A program made the translations under genes and the position numbers. DNA of 35,466 nucleotides from a virus: IMG/VR virus record IMGVR_UViG_3300042397_000461, positions 1 through 35,466 of that record. The stretch is one strand, 5' to 3'. A model generated the notes under the pieces. It was given only the letters and a program-made list of their open reading frames with translations. It was not told where the DNA came from and did not search any database. Below are positions 3,496 to 18,216 of this stretch, piece after piece. Position 1 is the first letter of the stretch; every line of letters begins with the position of its first letter.

Positions 3496-4056
3496 ATGGA
3501 AAAATCACTAACCAAACTGCCTACACTGGCAGAACTCACGCAAGACTTGGAGTTAGCGTGGAAAAACGACCAATTAAATTTACTGCTTAATCAAGCACCA
3601 CCAGCGCAATGGGTGAAGACACATCCATTTATTAAAGGCTACAACTACTTGCCAATTGATAAGGTGGAGTTGTTACTCCGTAAGATATTTAAAGAGTACA
3701 AAATTGAGATTACAGGACAAGGTACCGCATTCAATGGTGTGTGGGTTACGGTTCGCGTACACTTTAAATCACCTACTAATGGTGAGTGGTTGTTTTATGA
3801 TGGTATCGGAGCAGCACAATTGCAAACTAAGCAAGGCGCAAGTCCGGCCGACTTAGCTAACATCAACAACGGTGCTTTGTCGATGGCGTTTCCAATAGCC
3901 AAGACCGTAGCTGTTAAGGACGCATCTGACCATTTTGGTGCATTGTTTGGGGCAAACTTAAACCGCAAGGATGTTGTAGAGTTTAAGCCTGATGCAAACA
4001 TTAACGAGCAGTTTACAAAGTCTAACGCTGAAAAAATGGGAGGTAAAAATGGCTAA
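3496..4056 (+). CDS. Rad52-like single-strand annealing protein
   Basis: The protein has 186 residues. The central pattern resembles Rad52-superfamily phage annealing proteins: KGYNYLPIDKVELLLRKIF near 48-66, VWVTVRVHFKS near 82-92, then KTVAVKDASDHFGALFGANL near 136-155, which recalls the Rad52 'A-x-DA-x-x-x-FG' helix. These proteins anneal complementary single strands during phage recombination. The next gene is a YqaJ-type exonuclease overlapping by 8 bases, the classic Red-like pair, and this context is the strongest support. The C-terminus is short and basic (KSNAEKMGGKNG). Confidence 0.72.
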   Translation: MEKSLTKLPTLAELTQDLELAWKNDQLNLLLNQAPPAQWVKTHPFIKGYNYLPIDKVELLLRKIFKEYKIEITGQGTAFNGVWVTVRVHFKSPTNGEWLFYDGIGAAQLQTKQGASPADLANINNGALSMAFPIAKTVAVKDASDHFGALFGANLNRKDVVEFKPDANINEQFTKSNAEKMGGKNG

Positions 4057-4723
4057 GTATAATGTATTTGAAACAAAAGAAGACTGGGCAAAGTTCCGCA
4101 GAGGTTTGTTTACCGCAAGCGAGGTACACAGGTTATTAGCTGAACCAAAGTTGAAAGCAGATAAAGAAGCAGGCAATCTAAGTGAAGGAGCAAAGACTTA
4201 TGTTCGTGAGCGAGTGGCTATCCTATTAGCACCTGAAGAACCACAGCATTATAATAGTAACATGGAACGAGGTAACGAAGCAGAACCACAAGCTGTATTA
4301 GCTTACGCTGAAAGCATAGGCATGTCGGTTAATGATGATGACTTTGTTTACACTTCGGTAGGTGGCTTTGTGTTTTTTACTGATGAAGACCACAACGCAG
4401 GAGGCACGCCTGATATTATAATCGGCAAATCAATTTGCGAAATCAAATGTCCTTTATCTAAAACGCACTTGGAATACTTAATGATGCGTGATGCTGAAGA
4501 ACTAAAGAAAGCAGTACCGCAATACTACTCCCAAATGCAAATGAATATGTGGTTATGTGGTGCAGACGATGGTGTGTTTATTTCATTTGATGATCGTTAC
4601 TACAACTCAGTTCACCATTTGCACTCAATCCACGTTCCAAGAGATGAGGAACACATCGAGTTAATAAAATCAAAGCTACTAAAGGCTAAAGAATACAAAG
4701 ACCAAATTTTAAAAACAATATGA
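4049..4723 (+). CDS. YqaJ / lambda-Exo family recombination exonuclease
   Basis: The protein has 224 residues from the ATG at 4049, which follows GGAGG closely; an in-frame upstream ATG at 3992 lies inside the previous gene. The PD-(D/E)XK nuclease core is visible: FTASE at 21-25, GNEAEP at 75-80, GGTPD with D122, and E131-I-K133 (SICEIKCP). Spacing matches the D-x8-E-x-K arrangement of lambda exonuclease. A QMNMWLCGADDG segment follows. It should degrade one strand of double-stranded ends to feed the annealing protein encoded just upstream. Confidence 0.86.
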   Translation: MAKYNVFETKEDWAKFRRGLFTASEVHRLLAEPKLKADKEAGNLSEGAKTYVRERVAILLAPEEPQHYNSNMERGNEAEPQAVLAYAESIGMSVNDDDFVYTSVGGFVFFTDEDHNAGGTPDIIIGKSICEIKCPLSKTHLEYLMMRDAEELKKAVPQYYSQMQMNMWLCGADDGVFISFDDRYYNSVHHLHSIHVPRDEEHIELIKSKLLKAKEYKDQILKTI

Positions 4724-5797: not shown

Positions 5798-5976
5798 TGA
5801 GCAAAAGAGGAGGCAAGCGAAAAGGTGCTGGAAGACCAAGCAAGGATAACGCACTAACTGAGGGGATAAACGTATCCGTAGACTTTAAGACAAAGCAATC
5901 ATACAAGCTACTACCACTTGAAGTTAAGAGGCAGATAGGGGATAGGTTAAGAAGTGTTTTGGGATTGTATGTATAA
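5797..5976 (+). CDS. Small basic AT-hook-like protein
   Basis: The protein has 59 residues from ATG 5797, which overlaps the preceding stop. The N-terminus (SKRGGKRKGAGRPSKD, 2-17) is a strongly basic G-R-P segment like an AT-hook or the lead-in of many phage DNA-binding proteins. The remainder (VDFKTKQSYKLLPLEVKRQIGDRLR) looks like the KLLPLEVKxxI motif of small ribbon-helix-helix-like regulators. Its stop codon (5974-5976) lies within the first attC-like site, exactly where cassette genes stop in the sites further on. Confidence 0.6.
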   Translation: MSKRGGKRKGAGRPSKDNALTEGINVSVDFKTKQSYKLLPLEVKRQIGDRLRSVLGLYV

Positions 5977-6101
5977 CGTTTTGCAGCTTGGCGAAGTGGC
6001 GGATATAGAAGTACTTACTTTCATTTTAGTACTAAACTTCATTTGAAAACCAAATGTTCAATTTAGCACTAAACCCGCCATTTTGCCAAACTGCTGTTAC
6101 C
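5972..6101 (+). repeat. attC-like site A (integron recombination site)
   Basis: Outer box TATAACG at 5972-5978 and GTTA at 6096-6099. Imperfect inverted arms at 5983-6002 (GCAG-C-TTGGC-G-AA-G-TGGCGG) and 6075-6094 (CCGCCA-T-TT-T-GCCAA-AC-TGC). The arms pair with single-base symmetric mismatches, leaving a 72-base variable loop. TAAC/GTTA outer boxes, interrupted inner arms and variable terminal loop are the layout of integron attC sites. The same design recurs at sites B, C and D. Confidence 0.72.
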
Positions 6102-6759
6102 TGCTGGCATTTGTTTTATTCATTGTATTTGTCGCAAAAAATAGTCCTAAAATTAGTCCAATTTGCAAAACAAAATTTATTATATAATTCCAATTCCAAC
6201 TGCCAAATAATTTGTCAGGTAAAAGTTTGTCAAATAGCCAATAGTTGAACCAAGAAGTAAAAAACATAACTAAAATAAAAATAATCATTGATGCAAGTAG
6301 TTTTAAAAAAGGCGTTTTCCTGTCAGTCAATAAAAGTACAGGAACGACAAATATTGTCACCAAAATATAAAGTCCTGAAGACGATAATAAAAACCAAATA
6401 TTATTTTTTATGATTTTAGTGTCAGCCTTTGTTGTGTTTTGGCTTTGTTTATTGTCAGTTGAAGCAATATTCTTTAAAAAAGATGATGAATAATCAATTA
6501 TATTTTTTCGGTCAAAAGTTTGATTTTGCAGTGTTACAAGTTTTGCTCTTGTATCAGTTGTCAAAGTTGTGTCTGCAAGTAGTTCTGTTATTGATTTTAG
6601 TTGTTCAAGTTGTCTTTGTTTATTGTAGTAGTAAGAAAACCCAATTAAATTGTCAACTATGAGCAAAGTGCAAATCGAAATAATAAATACAGTCGCTCTT
6701 GCAGAAAGTCGTTTTTCACTGTCGGTAATAAAGTTTAGTATGTTGTCAAAAAAACTCAT
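6097..6759 (-). CDS. Four-pass membrane protein on the minus strand (cassette 1)
   Basis: The protein has 220 residues and is the only minus-strand gene I support. Hydrophobic segments lie at about 22-43, 123-145, 152-176 and 188-207. A polar, helical region (about 46-115) sits between the first and second. The stop codon lies in the GTTA box of site A. The gene sits between attC-like sites A and B, so it is the cargo of one cassette (6097-6921) inserted with the gene reversed. No family recognised; a small-molecule, defence or stress role cannot be told apart from sequence. I see no clear promoter upstream of its start. Confidence 0.7.
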   Translation of the reverse strand: MSFFDNILNFITDSEKRLSARATVFIISICTLLIVDNLIGFSYYYNKQRQLEQLKSITELLADTTLTTDTRAKLVTLQNQTFDRKNIIDYSSSFLKNIASTDNKQSQNTTKADTKIIKNNIWFLLSSSGLYILVTIFVVPVLLLTDRKTPFLKLLASMIIFILVMFFTSWFNYWLFDKLLPDKLFGSWNWNYIINFVLQIGLILGLFFATNTMNKTNASR

Positions 6760-6798
6760 AGTGATTTGTGTCGTGGTGTCTGTCCTTATGCTTGCAGG

Positions 6799-6927
6799 TA
6801 ACGTGCCGCAGCTTGTTGTTAGTGCGGGATTAGGGAGTATAATTTATCAACTAAAATAAAATCACAATGAAAGCAGAAAATTTGAATGAACCGAAAAGCC
6901 CCGCATTGCAACAAGGTGCTGTTATGC
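6799..6927 (+). repeat. attC-like site B
   Basis: TAACG at 6799-6803; left arm 6808-6827 (GCA-G-CTTGTTG-TTAG-TGCGG); right arm 6901-6919 (CCGCA-TTG-CAACAAG-G-TGC); GTTATGC at 6921-6927. The loop is 73 bases. The arms pair CTTGTTG/CAACAAG and TGCGG/CCGCA, with the same GCA-G ... G-TGC-T-GTTA frame as sites C and D. The start codon of the following cassette gene is inside the GTTATGC box. Confidence 0.75.
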
Positions 6928-7121
6928 CTCTTTTTTCTGATATTGATTATAATGTTGGAGATTCTTTGGTAAGTAAGGAAAACCCGAATAAAGAAATTGG
7001 TATTTGTACTGGATTTAGGCATAATGATACTTGTGTTGAAATAAATGGAAAATGTTGGGGAGGTAGAAATTATTTTATGAAATCCGAATGGGTTGATTGT
7101 GTTGTGTTAAATGAGGCATAA
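6924..7121 (+). CDS. Unknown 65-aa cassette protein (cassette 2)
   Basis: The protein has 65 residues from ATG 6924, which lies within the GTTATGC box of site B. A longer in-frame start at 6867 would be translated through the inverted repeat and would belong to the neighbouring cassette, so I prefer 6924. The sequence (DYNVGDSLVSKENPNKEIG, then CTGFRHNDTCVEINGKCWGG) looks like a compact beta-barrel domain with three Cys. The stop TAA is inside the TAACG box of site C, so the gene fills the cassette (6922-7205) from box to box. Function unknown. Confidence 0.7.
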   Translation: MPLFSDIDYNVGDSLVSKENPNKEIGICTGFRHNDTCVEINGKCWGGRNYFMKSEWVDCVVLNEA

Positions 7122-7213
7122 CGTGTTGCAGCTAACAGAAGTGGCTGCTTTGAGAACTTCTGAATTAAAAACCAATGCTTGTGCAGCCATTTTTGTTAGG
7201 TGCTGTTATAAGC
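7116..7213 (+). repeat. attC-like site C
   Basis: GCATAACG at 7116-7123; left arm 7128-7148 (GCA-G-CTAACA-G-AA-G-TGGCTGC); right arm 7183-7203 (GCAGCCA-T-TT-T-TGTTAG-G-TGC); GTTATAAGC at 7205-7213. This is the clearest of the four: 19 of 21 arm positions are either paired or sit opposite a matching single-base mismatch. The loop is 34 bases. Confidence 0.8.
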
Positions 7214-7235
7214 TGATTTAAAAAACTTTTGAGCG

Positions 7236-7403
7236 ATGGAAATAAAATATGATACACCAATAGAAGTAAATGAAAAGCAATACAAAAAGTTGATGCACGA
7301 ATGTAGCGGAATAGTTGCAGGGCGTGAAGAAAACGGAAAGTATTACATAAAAGTATGGTTGATGAAATACGCTGATTATGTTAGGCGGGTGGCAGGTTTT
7401 TAA
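7236..7403 (+). CDS. Unknown 55-aa cassette protein (cassette 3)
   Basis: This 55-residue frame starts MEIKYDTPIEVNEKQYKKLM and ends YADYVRRVAGF. It sits 22 bases after the GTTA box of site C and ends 7 bases before site D, so it occupies cassette 3 (7206-7480) alone. Charged, with a GKYYIKVWLMKYADY segment of beta then helix character. No family recognised. The tight fit between two recombination sites is the main reason to believe it is a gene. Confidence 0.6.
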   Translation: MEIKYDTPIEVNEKQYKKLMHECSGIVAGREENGKYYIKVWLMKYADYVRRVAGF

Positions 7404-7410
7404 ATTTGCT

Positions 7411-7486
7411 TATAACGTTTTGCGGCTAATGGCTGGCCGCAATAGGCGTTTAGAAGTTAGCGGCTTGCCATTAGGTGCTGTTAGCT
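7411..7486 (+). repeat. attC-like site D
   Basis: TATAACG at 7411-7417; left arm 7421-7440 (TGCG-G-CTAATGGC-TG-GCCGC); right arm 7460-7478 (GCGGC-TT-GCCATTAG-G-TGC); GTTAGCT at 7480-7486. The stems CTAATGGC/GCCATTAG and GCCGC/GCGGC are perfect. This is the last site of the array; I find no further copy downstream. Confidence 0.78.
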
Positions 7487-7546
7487 GTGTGCGTAGGCTT
7501 GTGGGGAGCCAGTTTGTTTTTAATGTTTAATTTTTAGCGTAGGAAA

Positions 7547-8191
7547 ATGGAAAATAAAATAAAGATAGCGGAGTTTTTCGCAGGGAGTAGATCGATTGGT
7601 AACGTTGCCGAAAGTAAAGGAATGGAAGTTTTTAGCATAGACTGGCAACCATTTGATAAAATTAATTGGGTTGGTGATGTAGCAGAAATGAAAACGGAAG
7701 ATGTGCCGTTTATACCTGATGCTGTGTGGGGATCGCCTGACTGCACGACTTATACAATTGCAGCGATAAGTACACACCGAAATGGCACAGAACCTAAAAG
7801 CGACTATGCTAAAAAGTGCGATAGTGTGAACCAACATTTTTTAGCAATGATTGAAAAGTGGCTTTTGATAAACCCGAAAATGGTATTTTTTATCGAGAAC
7901 CCAAGAGGGATGTTGCGCAAAATGCCATTTATGCAAAAGTTTAAAAGACACACTATTTGGTATTGCCAATACGGTGACGATAGAGCTAAACCAACCGATG
8001 TGTGGACGAACTGCGAAACATGGCAACCAAGACCGATGTGCCATAACGGAAATAAAAACTGCCATCACCAACCAGCACCGAGAGGATCCAAAACGGGAAC
8101 GCAAGGAAGAAAAGGCGCATACGAAAGGAGTAAGATACCAACCGAACTATGTAATGAAATTTTAAGTGCGGTGGAAAAAATTAAACATTAA
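7547..8191 (+). CDS. Short C5-cytosine methyltransferase-like protein
   Basis: The protein has 214 residues. Motif I-like AEFFAGSRSIGNVAE near 8-22 (SAM binding), an acidic residue after beta-2 (SID at 30-32), motif IV-like GSPDCTTYT with C66 as candidate nucleophile, and motif VI-like IENPRG with E117 and N118. Most C5 enzymes read PCQ at motif IV; here it is PDC. The protein is much shorter than full enzymes and has no obvious target-recognition domain. It begins 60 bases after the last attC-like site, but no site follows it, so it is probably a phage gene. DNA methylation against restriction is the likely role, not proven. Confidence 0.65.
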   Translation: MENKIKIAEFFAGSRSIGNVAESKGMEVFSIDWQPFDKINWVGDVAEMKTEDVPFIPDAVWGSPDCTTYTIAAISTHRNGTEPKSDYAKKCDSVNQHFLAMIEKWLLINPKMVFFIENPRGMLRKMPFMQKFKRHTIWYCQYGDDRAKPTDVWTNCETWQPRPMCHNGNKNCHHQPAPRGSKTGTQGRKGAYERSKIPTELCNEILSAVEKIKH

Positions 8192-8242
8192 AAACAAATT
8201 ACCGCTAACTTACTTATTTGCGAAACAAATGTATAAAGTGCC

Positions 8243-8482
8243 ATGAAAATACAAGACTTAAAACTTGATACATTTATCATAGTGTATGCTGGAATTAAAC
8301 ATACAGACTTAGTGTTAAGTGATATTGGTATGATTAATTACAAGACAGGTAAAATTTACAAAAAACAACTTAATAGTGGGTGCTTAGGTTATTTTATTAA
8401 CCGAAAGTTTAGATCTGAAAGTAGATTGCAAAAATATCCGCTAACAAAAATTGTTTACATTAAACAAAAATTACCTTTTTAG
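8243..8482 (+). CDS. Unknown small basic protein
   Basis: The protein has 79 residues: MKIQDLKLDTFIIVYAGIKH, then a basic C-terminal half (NRKFRSESRLQKYPLTKIVYIKQK). The beginning resembles that of the 68-residue protein at 5101 in pattern (x-QDLK-x-x-x-x-I-x), a weak sign of relatedness. Alone between the methyltransferase-like gene and the small RNA. Function unknown. Confidence 0.6.
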   Translation: MKIQDLKLDTFIIVYAGIKHTDLVLSDIGMINYKTGKIYKKQLNSGCLGYFINRKFRSESRLQKYPLTKIVYIKQKLPF

Positions 8483-8868: not shown

Positions 8869-9512
8869 TGTCACGTAAAGCATTTAATTTTTATCGAAGC
8901 TACTTTGATGTTGCTTGCGAATTATCCGACAAGGATAGACTTGCGTTTTACGATGCAATAATAACATTACAATTTACTGCAAATTCCACACCATTAAAAG
9001 GTACTGCTAAGTTTGCGTTCTTATCTCAAAAACATAGTATTGATGCACAAATAAAAGGGTATTATGATAAGACAAAAGACCCTATGTTTGCCCCTTGCCA
9101 AGGGGGTATACAAGGGGGTTGGCAACAAGAGGAAGAGAAAGGACAAGTACAAGAACAAGAGGAAGTAAAAGAAGAATATAACAATTTAGGTTTATTAATA
9201 CCTAAATCTGAACTTGAGTTAACTTTTGAATCTTACTTAGAGATGCGAAGAAAGATAAAGAAACCTGCAACACCTCACGCAATAGATTTAATTAAAAAGA
9301 AATTGGTGCAGATGACACAGAATAACGAAAAGGATATGTGTGAATTGCTAAATCAATCAATTGTTAATAATTGGGTGGATATTTATCCATTAAAAAATAA
9401 CTTTGCAAAAAAAGACAGACCAACCATGCGAACAACCAACGAAGTATTTGACAACGTAATTGAACGCATAAGGAATGGAGAGGATACAACCGTTAAGATA
9501 ATTGGATTATGA
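8868..9512 (+). CDS. DUF6291-like replication-associated protein
   Basis: The protein has 214 residues. Residues about 5-70 (FNFYRSYFDVACELSDKDRLAFYDAI, then GTAKFAFLSQKHSIDAQIKGY) match the DUF6291-type domain common in Bacteroidota phages at the replication-initiator position. A Glu/Gln-rich linker (about 85-105) follows, then a helical C-terminal domain (about 115-165). Fused N- and C-terminal helical modules recall DnaD/replisome-organiser proteins, which is the likely role by position. Overlaps both neighbours. Confidence 0.65.
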   Translation: MSRKAFNFYRSYFDVACELSDKDRLAFYDAIITLQFTANSTPLKGTAKFAFLSQKHSIDAQIKGYYDKTKDPMFAPCQGGIQGGWQQEEEKGQVQEQEEVKEEYNNLGLLIPKSELELTFESYLEMRRKIKKPATPHAIDLIKKKLVQMTQNNEKDMCELLNQSIVNNWVDIYPLKNNFAKKDRPTMRTTNEVFDNVIERIRNGEDTTVKIIGL

Positions 9513-10263: not shown

Positions 10264-10575
10264 ATGGAAAAGATAAACGGAGCTGTTAAGTCAGTAGGGC
10301 GAGTAGGGTATACGCTAAAAGCAACAGGTTACGAAAGTATGTCAATGTATAATTACCACTTTGATTATTACTTTACACTACCAAGATACGCGATAACTTT
10401 AGAAGATAAAGCTAACCCACGCAACTATTGGATAACTGCTAAAAACGAACAGGATGTAATTAATAGTATTGAAAAATTAATCACCAAACATAAACTTAAA
10501 ATATATGAAACCAAAGTCACAAAAGGAAGCGTTAATGCTTCTGCTAAAAAAAGGAAAACCAGTAAATTGGGTTAA
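10264..10575 (+). CDS. Unknown protein, possibly leaderless mRNA
   Basis: The protein has 103 residues: MEKINGAVKSVGRVGYTLK, an aromatic middle (YNYHFDYYFTLPRYAITLED), a helical segment (EQDVINSIEKLITKHKLKIYE) and a basic tail ending KKRKTSKLG. The start codon sits right after a near-perfect promoter, leaving no room for a leader. The basic tail overlaps the next gene by 71 bases in another frame. No family recognised. Confidence 0.65.
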   Translation: MEKINGAVKSVGRVGYTLKATGYESMSMYNYHFDYYFTLPRYAITLEDKANPRNYWITAKNEQDVINSIEKLITKHKLKIYETKVTKGSVNASAKKRKTSKLG

Positions 10576-16418: not shown

Positions 16419-16723
16419 TGATACCAACCCGATTCAATATAATGTCACATGAAATAGAGGTAGTAATCGACAACGAATACTGCCACGCCAACCAATGTAT
16501 GGGAAGGTTCATCTATTATGACAATAAAATAATAATAGCAGATAAATATAAGACAGATAAGACATGGCGCAAGTATAAGGAGTCAATAATTGAACATACA
16601 TTTTACCACGAATTAACACATTGTATATTATATTATACAGGCAATAAGAAATTGTGGTTAAATGAACGGTTAGTTGACAGCATAGGCGGTATGTGGTTAC
16701 AATACGATAAGAGTAAGATATGA
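16418..16723 (+). CDS. Small zincin-type metalloprotease-like protein
   Basis: The protein has 101 residues. HELTH at 64-68 is a clear HExxH zinc motif on a predicted helix (IIEHTFYHELTHCILYY), with E83 (NERLVD) as a candidate third ligand. Its size suits the minimal phage proteins related to ImmA/SprT-like zincins. It shares one base with the previous stop and overlaps the methyltransferase gene by 4 bases. Whether it cleaves a virion or a host protein is unknown. Confidence 0.7.
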   Translation: MIPTRFNIMSHEIEVVIDNEYCHANQCMGRFIYYDNKIIIADKYKTDKTWRKYKESIIEHTFYHELTHCILYYTGNKKLWLNERLVDSIGGMWLQYDKSKI

Positions 16724-18216
16724 AAATAACAAAGGTAGCAATAAACGAAGTAAAGGTTAATCCAAACAATCCACGATTGATTAAGGATGACAAATTTAAA
16801 AAGTTAGTACAGTCGGTTAAAGATTTCCCTGAGATGCTTGATATACGACCAATAGTAGTAAATGCTGACATGGTGGTATTGGGTGGCAACATGAGGCTAA
16901 AAGCATGCAAGGAGGCAGGTTTAAAAGAAGTACCTATAATAATGGCAGATAAACTAACAGAAGACCAACAGCGTGAATTTTTAATAAAGGACAATGTAAG
17001 CGGTGGAGAATGGGATTGGGATATATTAGCAAATGAATGGGAGGTTGAGCAGTTAGAAGAATGGGGTTTGGATATACCAGTAAACTTTGAAGTTGAACTT
17101 GAGGCTGAGGAAGATGACTTTGCAGTTCCTGAGGGAGGAATTGAAACGGATATTGTGTTAGGTGATTTATTTGAGATAGGAGAACACAGATTGCTTTGTG
17201 GGGATAGTACGGATTCGGATTCAGTTGCTAAACTTATGAATGGAGAGAAAGCAGATATGGCACACAATGACCCTCCGTACGGAATGAAGAAAGAAAAAGA
17301 AGGAGTTTTAAATGACAACTTAAACTACTTGGATTTATTAGATTTTAACAAGGAGTGGATTCCTTTACAATTTTTACATTTAAAAGAAAACGGGAGTTGG
17401 TATTGCTGGGGAATAGATGAGCCTTTAATGGATATTTATTCTGAGATATTAAAACCATATATTTCAGAACAGAAGGCAACATTTAGAAATTTAATTACTT
17501 GGGATAAAGGAAACGGACAAGGGCAAAATTCAGAAAATACAAGAAGTTACGCAATAGCAGACGAAAAGTGCTTGTTTGTTATGTTAGGAGTTCAAGGTTT
17601 TAATAATAATCAAGATAATTACTTTGATAAATGGGAACCTATAAGAATTTATTTAGAACAAGAAATAAAAAAACTTAATGAATCAGATGGTAAAATTGCT
17701 GCTGCATTAGGTTATAAAGACGGAAGGACTGTAAACCATTGGTGGAGTAAATCACAATGGAGCTTTCCAACAAAAGAAAATTATGAAGCATTAAGAGAAT
17801 ATAGTAAAACAAAAGAATATGATGGATTCAAAAAAGAATATGATGAACTGAAAAAAGAATATGATGAACTGAAAAAAAAATATTATTCTACTCGTGCATA
17901 TTTTAACAATACACATGATAACTTTAATAATGTTTGGAAGTTTGATAGGCATGTAAGAAACGGAAGCGAAGGAGGACACGCAACACCTAAGCCAATTCCA
18001 CTATGCGAAAGAGCAATTAAATCAAGTTGCCCTGACAATGGTTTAGTATTAGATGTTTTTTTAGGTAGTGGTTCAACTATGGTAGCATCACATCAACTTA
18101 AACGCAAATGCTATGGAATGGAACTTGACCCTAAATACTGCCAAGTAATAATAGACAGAATGAAAAAGTTAGACCCAACATTAATAATTAAAAAGAATGG
18201 CATACAACAGAATTAA
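16720..18216 (+). CDS. ParB-like domain fused to beta-class DNA N-methyltransferase
   Basis: The protein has 498 residues. N-terminal ParB/sulfiredoxin-like domain (about 1-95) with VVLGGNMRLKACKEAG near 52-67. Methyltransferase domain: catalytic NDPPYG at 183-188, and SAM-binding LDVFLGSGSTMVA near 444-456. Motif IV before motif I is the beta-class order, so an N6-adenine or N4-cytosine enzyme. The region between holds the target-recognition part and three heptad units of the type EYDELKK, coded by 21-base tandem repeats (17815-17877). Probably protects phage DNA from restriction or marks it for packaging, as the terminase genes follow. Confidence 0.85.
   Translation: MKITKVAINEVKVNPNNPRLIKDDKFKKLVQSVKDFPEMLDIRPIVVNADMVVLGGNMRLKACKEAGLKEVPIIMADKLTEDQQREFLIKDNVSGGEWDWDILANEWEVEQLEEWGLDIPVNFEVELEAEEDDFAVPEGGIETDIVLGDLFEIGEHRLLCGDSTDSDSVAKLMNGEKADMAHNDPPYGMKKEKEGVLNDNLNYLDLLDFNKEWIPLQFLHLKENGSWYCWGIDEPLMDIYSEILKPYISEQKATFRNLITWDKGNGQGQNSENTRSYAIADEKCLFVMLGVQGFNNNQDNYFDKWEPIRIYLEQEIKKLNESDGKIAAALGYKDGRTVNHWWSKSQWSFPTKENYEALREYSKTKEYDGFKKEYDELKKEYDELKKKYYSTRAYFNNTHDNFNNVWKFDRHVRNGSEGGHATPKPIPLCERAIKSSCPDNGLVLDVFLGSGSTMVASHQLKRKCYGMELDPKYCQVIIDRMKKLDPTLIIKKNGIQQN
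17815..17877 (+). repeat. Three 21-bp tandem repeats in the methyltransferase gene
   Basis: Units at 17815-17835, 17836-17856 and 17857-17877; the last two are identical, the first differs at a few positions. Each codes for one EYD-x-x-KK heptad, so loss or gain of a unit keeps the frame. Confidence 0.8.

Follow-up and report, generated by a model that had tools for sequence, protein, structure and literature searches.

How can a phage genome carry a row of integron-like repeats and genes while encoding no integrase? The window, meaning the whole 35,466-nucleotide stretch analysed, is the 35.5-kb virus record IMGVR_UViG_3300042397_000461 of IMG/VR. It is a phage genome, as shown by its identical ends of 127 nt and its Terminase_3-type terminase large subunit, which among isolates comes closest to Flavobacterium phages (52% identity). 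The region from a small phage gene (5785-5976) to position 8245 holds four imperfect inverted repeats and four segments that bear genes. A sequence-only reading had interpreted these repeats as attC sites with three gene cassettes fitting between them, in a phage linked to Bacteroidota and lacking an integrase. The phage nature and the link to Bacteroidota both held, as did the missing integrase: a search of the whole 35-kb record for tyrosine recombinases (Pfam PF00589) gave no match.

The four repeats are genuine attC sites of the integron type. We trained a covariance model, R2, on 34 sites of other loci, none from the window; it was built from long sites because the length bound of the first model, R1, had cut long-loop sites short. 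R2 recovered all four repeats (E 5e-26 to 5e-10) where the earlier reading had placed them, with model boundaries at 5970-6103, 6795-6928, 7115-7212 and 7409-7487 (S0 to S3). A sequence detector, which misses variants, found 249 sites at a score of ≥14 in the fetched loci against 3 in the same loci reversed; within the window it reported exactly S0-S3 and nothing else. Across 37 aligned sites, the stem showed 177 double-change cells compared with 62 in shuffles, and a covariation score of 0.52 compared with 0.13. In this attC family, compensatory change keeps the stem, and sequence and loop are variable. A scan of the window repeats against Rfam gave no family match.

The segments between the sites also bear the mark of cassettes. 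Because an integron circle is joined at the R box, between G and TT, an integrated cassette begins with nucleotides complementary to the ones that precede its own attC. Complementary ends were found in the window at inverted-repeat positions 6096/6801, 6921/7121 and 7205/7415, extending over 9-10 nt in cassettes C1-C3 and matching at 8/9 in C4. Among 68 neighbouring pairs of cassette ends in the family, matches by position were.93,.78,.68,.71,.81,.68 and.46, against.82,.45,.28,.26,.50,.40 and.29 when partners were shuffled; the variable positions 2 to 7 thus matched in 46-81% compared with 26-50%. We read the complementary start and end of each cassette as the trace of integrated circles, the recombination itself being inferred. 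Terminators or REP-like repeats were ruled out as an explanation, since the R-box nucleotides pair across the cassette and not only within the hairpin.

Integrase-linked arrays set the forward sense of these sites as TAACAGC...GCAAAACG/TTA, and the array is therefore read on the minus strand, opposite to the orientation assumed in the sequence-only reading. In this direction it opens with an attI-like site (8206-8245, minus strand), CATTTGTTTCGCAAATAAGTAAG/TTAGCGG (also given as CGCAAATAAGTAAG/TTAGCGG), with an inferred cut between 8209 and 8208. Cassette C4 follows (7482-8208, minus), starting with GTTAGCGGT and ending with the complementary GTTAGCTGT with one mismatch; its boundary rests partly on comparison with sibling phages. 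C4 carries a DNA methyltransferase gene (7547-8191, plus; phrog_757 DNA methyltransferase, E=1.3e-27) that is antisense to its own phage-type attC, S3 (7409-7487, minus; R2 54 bits, E=4.6e-10), for which all eight of the eight nearest sites are viral. C3 (7206-7415, minus; complementary ends GTTATAAGC/GCTTATAAC) holds an open frame antisense to its attC (7236-7403, plus) for a 55-aa protein of unknown function, for which family searches gave no useful match. Its phage-type site S2 (7115-7212, minus; R2 69.5 bits, E=1.1e-13) is nearest to viral sites, with up to 91% identity. The gene of C2 (cassette 6922-7121, minus; complementary ends GTTATGCCTC/GAGGCATAAC) encodes 84 aa (6867-7121, plus) and has its start codon within its own phage-type attC, S1 (6795-6928, minus; R2 74.5 bits, E=7.2e-15; nearest sites viral), with the leader MKAENLNEPKSPALQQGAVM and a possible alternative start at 6924. 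C1 (6097-6801, minus; complementary ends GTTACCTGC/GCAGGTAAC) encodes a probable membrane protein of 220 aa (6097-6759, minus), sense to its attC and with its stop codon in the R'' box; the protein gave weak MFS/TauE matches below the cut-off. Its site S0 (5970-6103, minus; R2 122 bits, E=5e-26) is host-type, the eight nearest of eight sites being chromosomal (90-93%). Beyond it, the left junction GGGATTGTATGTAT (5961-5974) precedes AACG, and the stop codon of the flanking phage gene (5785-5976, plus) lies in the R' box of S0. A second phage methyltransferase gene, with a ParB-like N-terminal domain and N6/N4 DNA methylase domains, lies outside the array at 16720-18216.

The window thus holds an attI-like landing site, assigned as such by sequence only, plus four cassettes and four attC sites. 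The description of a CALIN is met on both counts, with four attC within 1.5 kb and no integron integrase in the 35-kb record. As for an integron platform, an attI site is present on sequence grounds and an integrase gene beside it is not. The count of three cassettes held only in part, as the methyltransferase cassette is a fourth, and the description as attC sites alone needs correcting, as an attI-like site follows that cassette.

The attI-like site was picked before any scoring, as it delimits C4 and is common to the sibling phage L302. With a column profile from 21 chromosomal attI-type sequences, it ranked 1 among the 1697 GTT of the window. L302 has the same 50 nt (98%) at the end of its array, and another sibling, L312, has an analogous site. 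Both siblings share the left junction GTATGTATAACGTTTTGC with the window (identical in L312, one base different in L302) but have other attC arms and genes, whereas three further siblings (L300, L304 and L305) lack the junction and the entire module. Homologues of the flanking gene occur both with and without an array. Many other viral arrays open at similar non-attC sequences, such as TTTTAGCGAG before GTTAGCGGT in L042 and L065. The sequence-only reading had offered two ways to be refuted, namely no support from covariance models or bacterial integrons, and repeats and genes fixed in related phages. Neither was met: the family model matches, the same sites occur in bacterial integrons, and cassette content varies at the locus. 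That reading is supported overall, with orientation, cassette number and attI corrected.

The cassettes of this family fall into two classes. Of 74 chromosomal cassettes, 72 had their longest ORF in the sense direction relative to attC, whereas 62 of 66 viral cassettes had it antisense (p 3e-32, a value that treats cassettes as independent, which they are not). The viral contigs were selected by motif, so frequencies describe that set only. An artefact of the search pattern was dismissed by two controls: viral contigs with the genome search pattern still gave 21 antisense against 1 sense, and integrase- or model-anchored chromosomal loci gave 11 sense against 0 antisense. In long viral sites, an in-frame ATG within the attC opened a frame of ≥20 codons past the R'' box in 38/42, encoding leaders such as MKLENENLNEPQKPQLNIGAV; the leader of C2 belongs to this conserved class. 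Phage 6H, an isolated Flavobacterium phage, has perfect cassette ends and a GenBank CDS beginning inside its own attC. In the window, C2, C3 and C4 are phage-type by orientation, with sites S1-S3 nearest to viral sites. C1 with S0 is read as a host cassette, on sequence alone, given the 90 to 93% similarity of S0 to chromosomal sites and the sense orientation of the C1 gene. The searches used brought up no relative of C1 in IMG/VR or in 375 Bacteroidota genomes, a negative result of little weight.

Where, then, does this family reside in bacteria? An exact pattern scan of one genome per species across 84,980 species returned 93 stretches, nearly all in Bacteroidota. R2 detected 1 to 81 sites in each attC-bearing genome (Flavobacteriales and other orders), and family sites were found by model in 73 of the 196 Flavobacteriales sampled. 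In more than a dozen genomes the arrays adjoin an IntI-like gene in a constant layout. A conserved sequence 3' of the integrase stop codon, approximately CATATA(A/T)A(C/T)AA/GTT, constitutes the attI; the first cassette begins at its GTT and is complementary to the first attC (L282, L283, L284 and L286). A first impression of the layout, which put the integrase at the wrong end of the array, was dropped, as the attI and the first-cassette complementarity showed the attC to be oriented opposite to the sequence-only reading. Among 194 Flavobacteriales, 45 had both enzyme (profile E<=1e-80) and attC, 26 attC only, 7 enzyme only and 116 neither (odds ratio 29), without correction for phylogeny.

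The enzyme is unusual. Against the integron integrase model TIGR02249 it scored 197 and 219 bits in two pieces, not reaching the cut-off of 265, and against the XerA/integron model NF040815 it scored 194 to 211 bits (cut-off 220). The catalytic residues are kept (the R, H-LRH and Y columns are invariant in alignment A3), and most of these proteins end in an SPLD-type motif, SP(L/F)D. The KDR-LRHS interval, which holds the IntI patch, spans 68-69 residues compared with 109-111 in IntI1, IntI2 and the IntI of Shewanella and Vibrio. In a phylogenetic tree, patch-bearing IntI formed one supported group, and the Bacteroidota enzymes lay outside it together with two viral relatives; the XerCD outgroup sits on a long branch, and support for the fork joining the Bacteroidota enzymes is weak. 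By context, we infer that the Bacteroidota enzyme acts as an integron integrase; judged by the patch, it falls outside classical IntI. Some Flavobacterium IntI-like proteins (L290, L291, L296 and L297) reach 575-602 aa and have a long additional region at the N terminus, of unknown role. In L295, L298 and L292, the stretch between the intI stop codon and attI contains an inverted repeat that differs from strain to strain, with arms about 10-20 nt long; this repeat is possibly part of attI or a terminator.

From these observations we propose that the window carries an integrase-less integron whose cassettes are exchanged site-specifically, with an enzyme supplied in trans, most likely by the host. 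We consider this model likely, while the reaction and the enzyme are inferred. The sites, cassette ends, attI-like site, sibling variation and host integrons are shown by sequence; the reaction, including a folded bottom strand, was not seen. In the model, the attI-like site followed on the minus strand by four circularisable cassettes with attC would form the phage integron, and cassettes would be gained, lost or swapped by site-specific recombination at G/TT, between two attC or between attI and attC. The enzyme would most likely be the patch-less IntI-like recombinase of a Bacteroidota host, possibly a relative from a co-infecting phage. The phage-type genes run opposite to attC and so in the direction in which the phage itself is transcribed, and they may be expressed from phage promoters. 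C1 with S0 would be a chromosomal-type cassette captured from a bacterial integron. As to a putative benefit, a methyltransferase would suit protection from host restriction.

Several points weigh against the model. Recombination was not observed, the host of the phage is unknown, and presence of the enzyme in that host is not established. The enzyme has no patch, a part that classical IntI are held to need for handling attC. Moreover, C4 has imperfect ends, C1 has no relative in the Bacteroidota genomes searched, and the association of enzyme and attC is uncorrected for phylogeny. A bolder reading is that Bacteroidota and their phages share one patch-less-integrase system, in which phages keep their own attI and a reversed cassette class, often with the start codon in the site, and draw on integrases of hosts or co-infecting phages for gene exchange among themselves and with bacterial arrays; on balance we lean slightly towards it.

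The main alternative source of the enzyme for the window is a co-infecting phage, and it remains possible that the enzyme in trans is the short IntI-like form (about 265-285 aa) of some viral contigs. In its favour, L426 carries an IntI-like gene, an attI-like TTTACATATAATA/GTT about 65 nt before the start of this gene and five sites with reversed genes, and the phage-type reversed cassette would be a natural substrate for a short viral enzyme. On the other hand, the enzyme profile matched in only 9 of the 76 viral records tested. Most of the nine carry a shorter form, and their phage nature rests on IMG/VR because none gave a terminase match. Among 27 terminase-bearing viral records, 21 had two or more sites and none had an IntI-like enzyme. 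The host-type nature of S0 and C1 also implies that host arrays were reached. A host enzyme in trans is therefore favoured, though unproven, given terminase-bearing records without the enzyme and carriers without terminase. As a separate observation, L426 (3951-8360) has the divergent layout of classical integrons, with IntI-like gene, attI-like site and five attC, and L426, L427, L402 and L425 (a 310-kb contig) are viral contigs with a short IntI-like enzyme near reversed cassettes.

Other explanations dispense with a present-day site-specific recombinase. Cassettes might be moved by phage homologous recombination (RecE/YqaJ-type exonuclease) on conserved attC arms: a YqaJ exonuclease gene lies at 3992-4723, 1.3 kb from the array, arms such as TAACGTTTTGCAGCT are common to several sites and could provide short homology, and phage mosaicism is common. 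We find this unlikely: the 8-10 nt at which the start and end of a cassette are complementary vary by cassette, a pattern that exchanges within the arms do not produce. The array also includes a host-type cassette together with its attC, and the sites retain a compensated hairpin, both of which speak against this explanation. Still less probable is a relic, a block captured once from an integron and now inactive, with hairpins serving only as terminators. The absence of an integrase from the record and the mismatch in the C4 ends would fit, but two close siblings have different cassettes at the same junction and three others have none, host- and phage-type cassettes are mixed, and 21/27 terminase-bearing viral records have two or more sites. 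An assembly chimera of phage and host integron could be suspected, as the record is metagenomic and one cassette is host-type. It is all but excluded: independent sibling contigs share the junctions, 3/4 cassettes belong to the phage type, and an array of this kind occurs in an isolated phage.

CALINs in phages have been reported before, including one in Polaribacter phage P12002L with methyltransferase cassettes, and IntI1 recombined some of the phage CALIN sites, among them a P12002L attC (Qi et al. 2023, PMC9892861). The window array resembles those phage CALINs in having attC cassettes without an integrase and DNA methyltransferase cassettes, one case being a Bacteroidota phage. Those cases were found with general attC models; with R1, two P12002L sites near its methyltransferases scored weakly (E 0.01 and 0.04). 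The sections of that paper bearing on the question report no attI-like site in P12002L, no reversed class with the start in attC and no Bacteroidota integrase. Like sedentary chromosomal integrons, the Bacteroidota system has an integrase gene, attI, tandem attC cassettes, complementary R boxes and a G/TT crossover point; it differs in its enzyme, which has an N-terminal extension and no IntI patch, and in its own attC family (GCAAAACG/TTA on the R' side), and the window array differs in lacking an integrase. Integrons of Treponema (PMC3607928) belong to another phylum, and Treponema integrases are of the classical IntI family.

Integrons are regarded as rare in Bacteroidota. IntegronFinder 2.0 (PMC9024848) reports only In0 elements and the Salinibacter integron for Bacteroidetes. 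Integron integrase genes in the phylum are common ground, whereas that survey has one complete integron for Bacteroidetes proper and we find up to 81 model matches per genome. In the integron-like subgroup of tyrosine recombinases of Smyshlyaev 2021 (PMC8138268), patch-less members are not tied to attC arrays in the passages bearing on it, and Bacteroidota are absent from the taxon-specific attC models of PMC8352920. The open-access literature searched, without subscription papers or preprints, gave no account of this attC family, the patch-less enzyme, a phage attI or reversed phage cassettes. We therefore consider the Bacteroidota system, the phage attI and the reversed phage-type cassettes to be new, with recombination inferred and not shown. 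The patch domain is thought necessary for recognising folded attC, and a patch-less integrase beside attC arrays makes it testable how attC is recombined without it. The phage side supplies a specific path along which phages and bacteria can swap cassettes, as well as a cassette layout tailored to phages. Bacteria and their phages thus appear to trade ready-made genes via one recombination system, as inferred from sequence alone.

The same attC family flanks the tetracycline-inactivation gene tet(X), so this system may supply mobile resistance genes. On Riemerella anatipestifer pRA0511 (L398, NC_019261, 3000-4335), tet(X2) forms a complete cassette of this family, with start GTTATGTGCC and end GGCACATAAC complementary at 10/10 and its own attC at 4201-4335 (R2 87.7 bits, E=7e-19). 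A Chryseobacterium plasmid (L370, NZ_CP041688, 8001-16701) carries a complete integron, with an IntI-like gene, attI near 9145 and attC at 10401, 11117, 13505 and 16572. On the Acinetobacter plasmids L368 (NZ_CP094542, 4974-7000) and L369 (NZ_CP044520), tet(X3)/tet(X5) is preceded, at a distance of 190 bp, by a truncated gene for the Bacteroidota IntI-like enzyme, and tet(X3) is followed by one half of an attC of the Bacteroidota family (local score 64 versus a shuffled maximum of 35).
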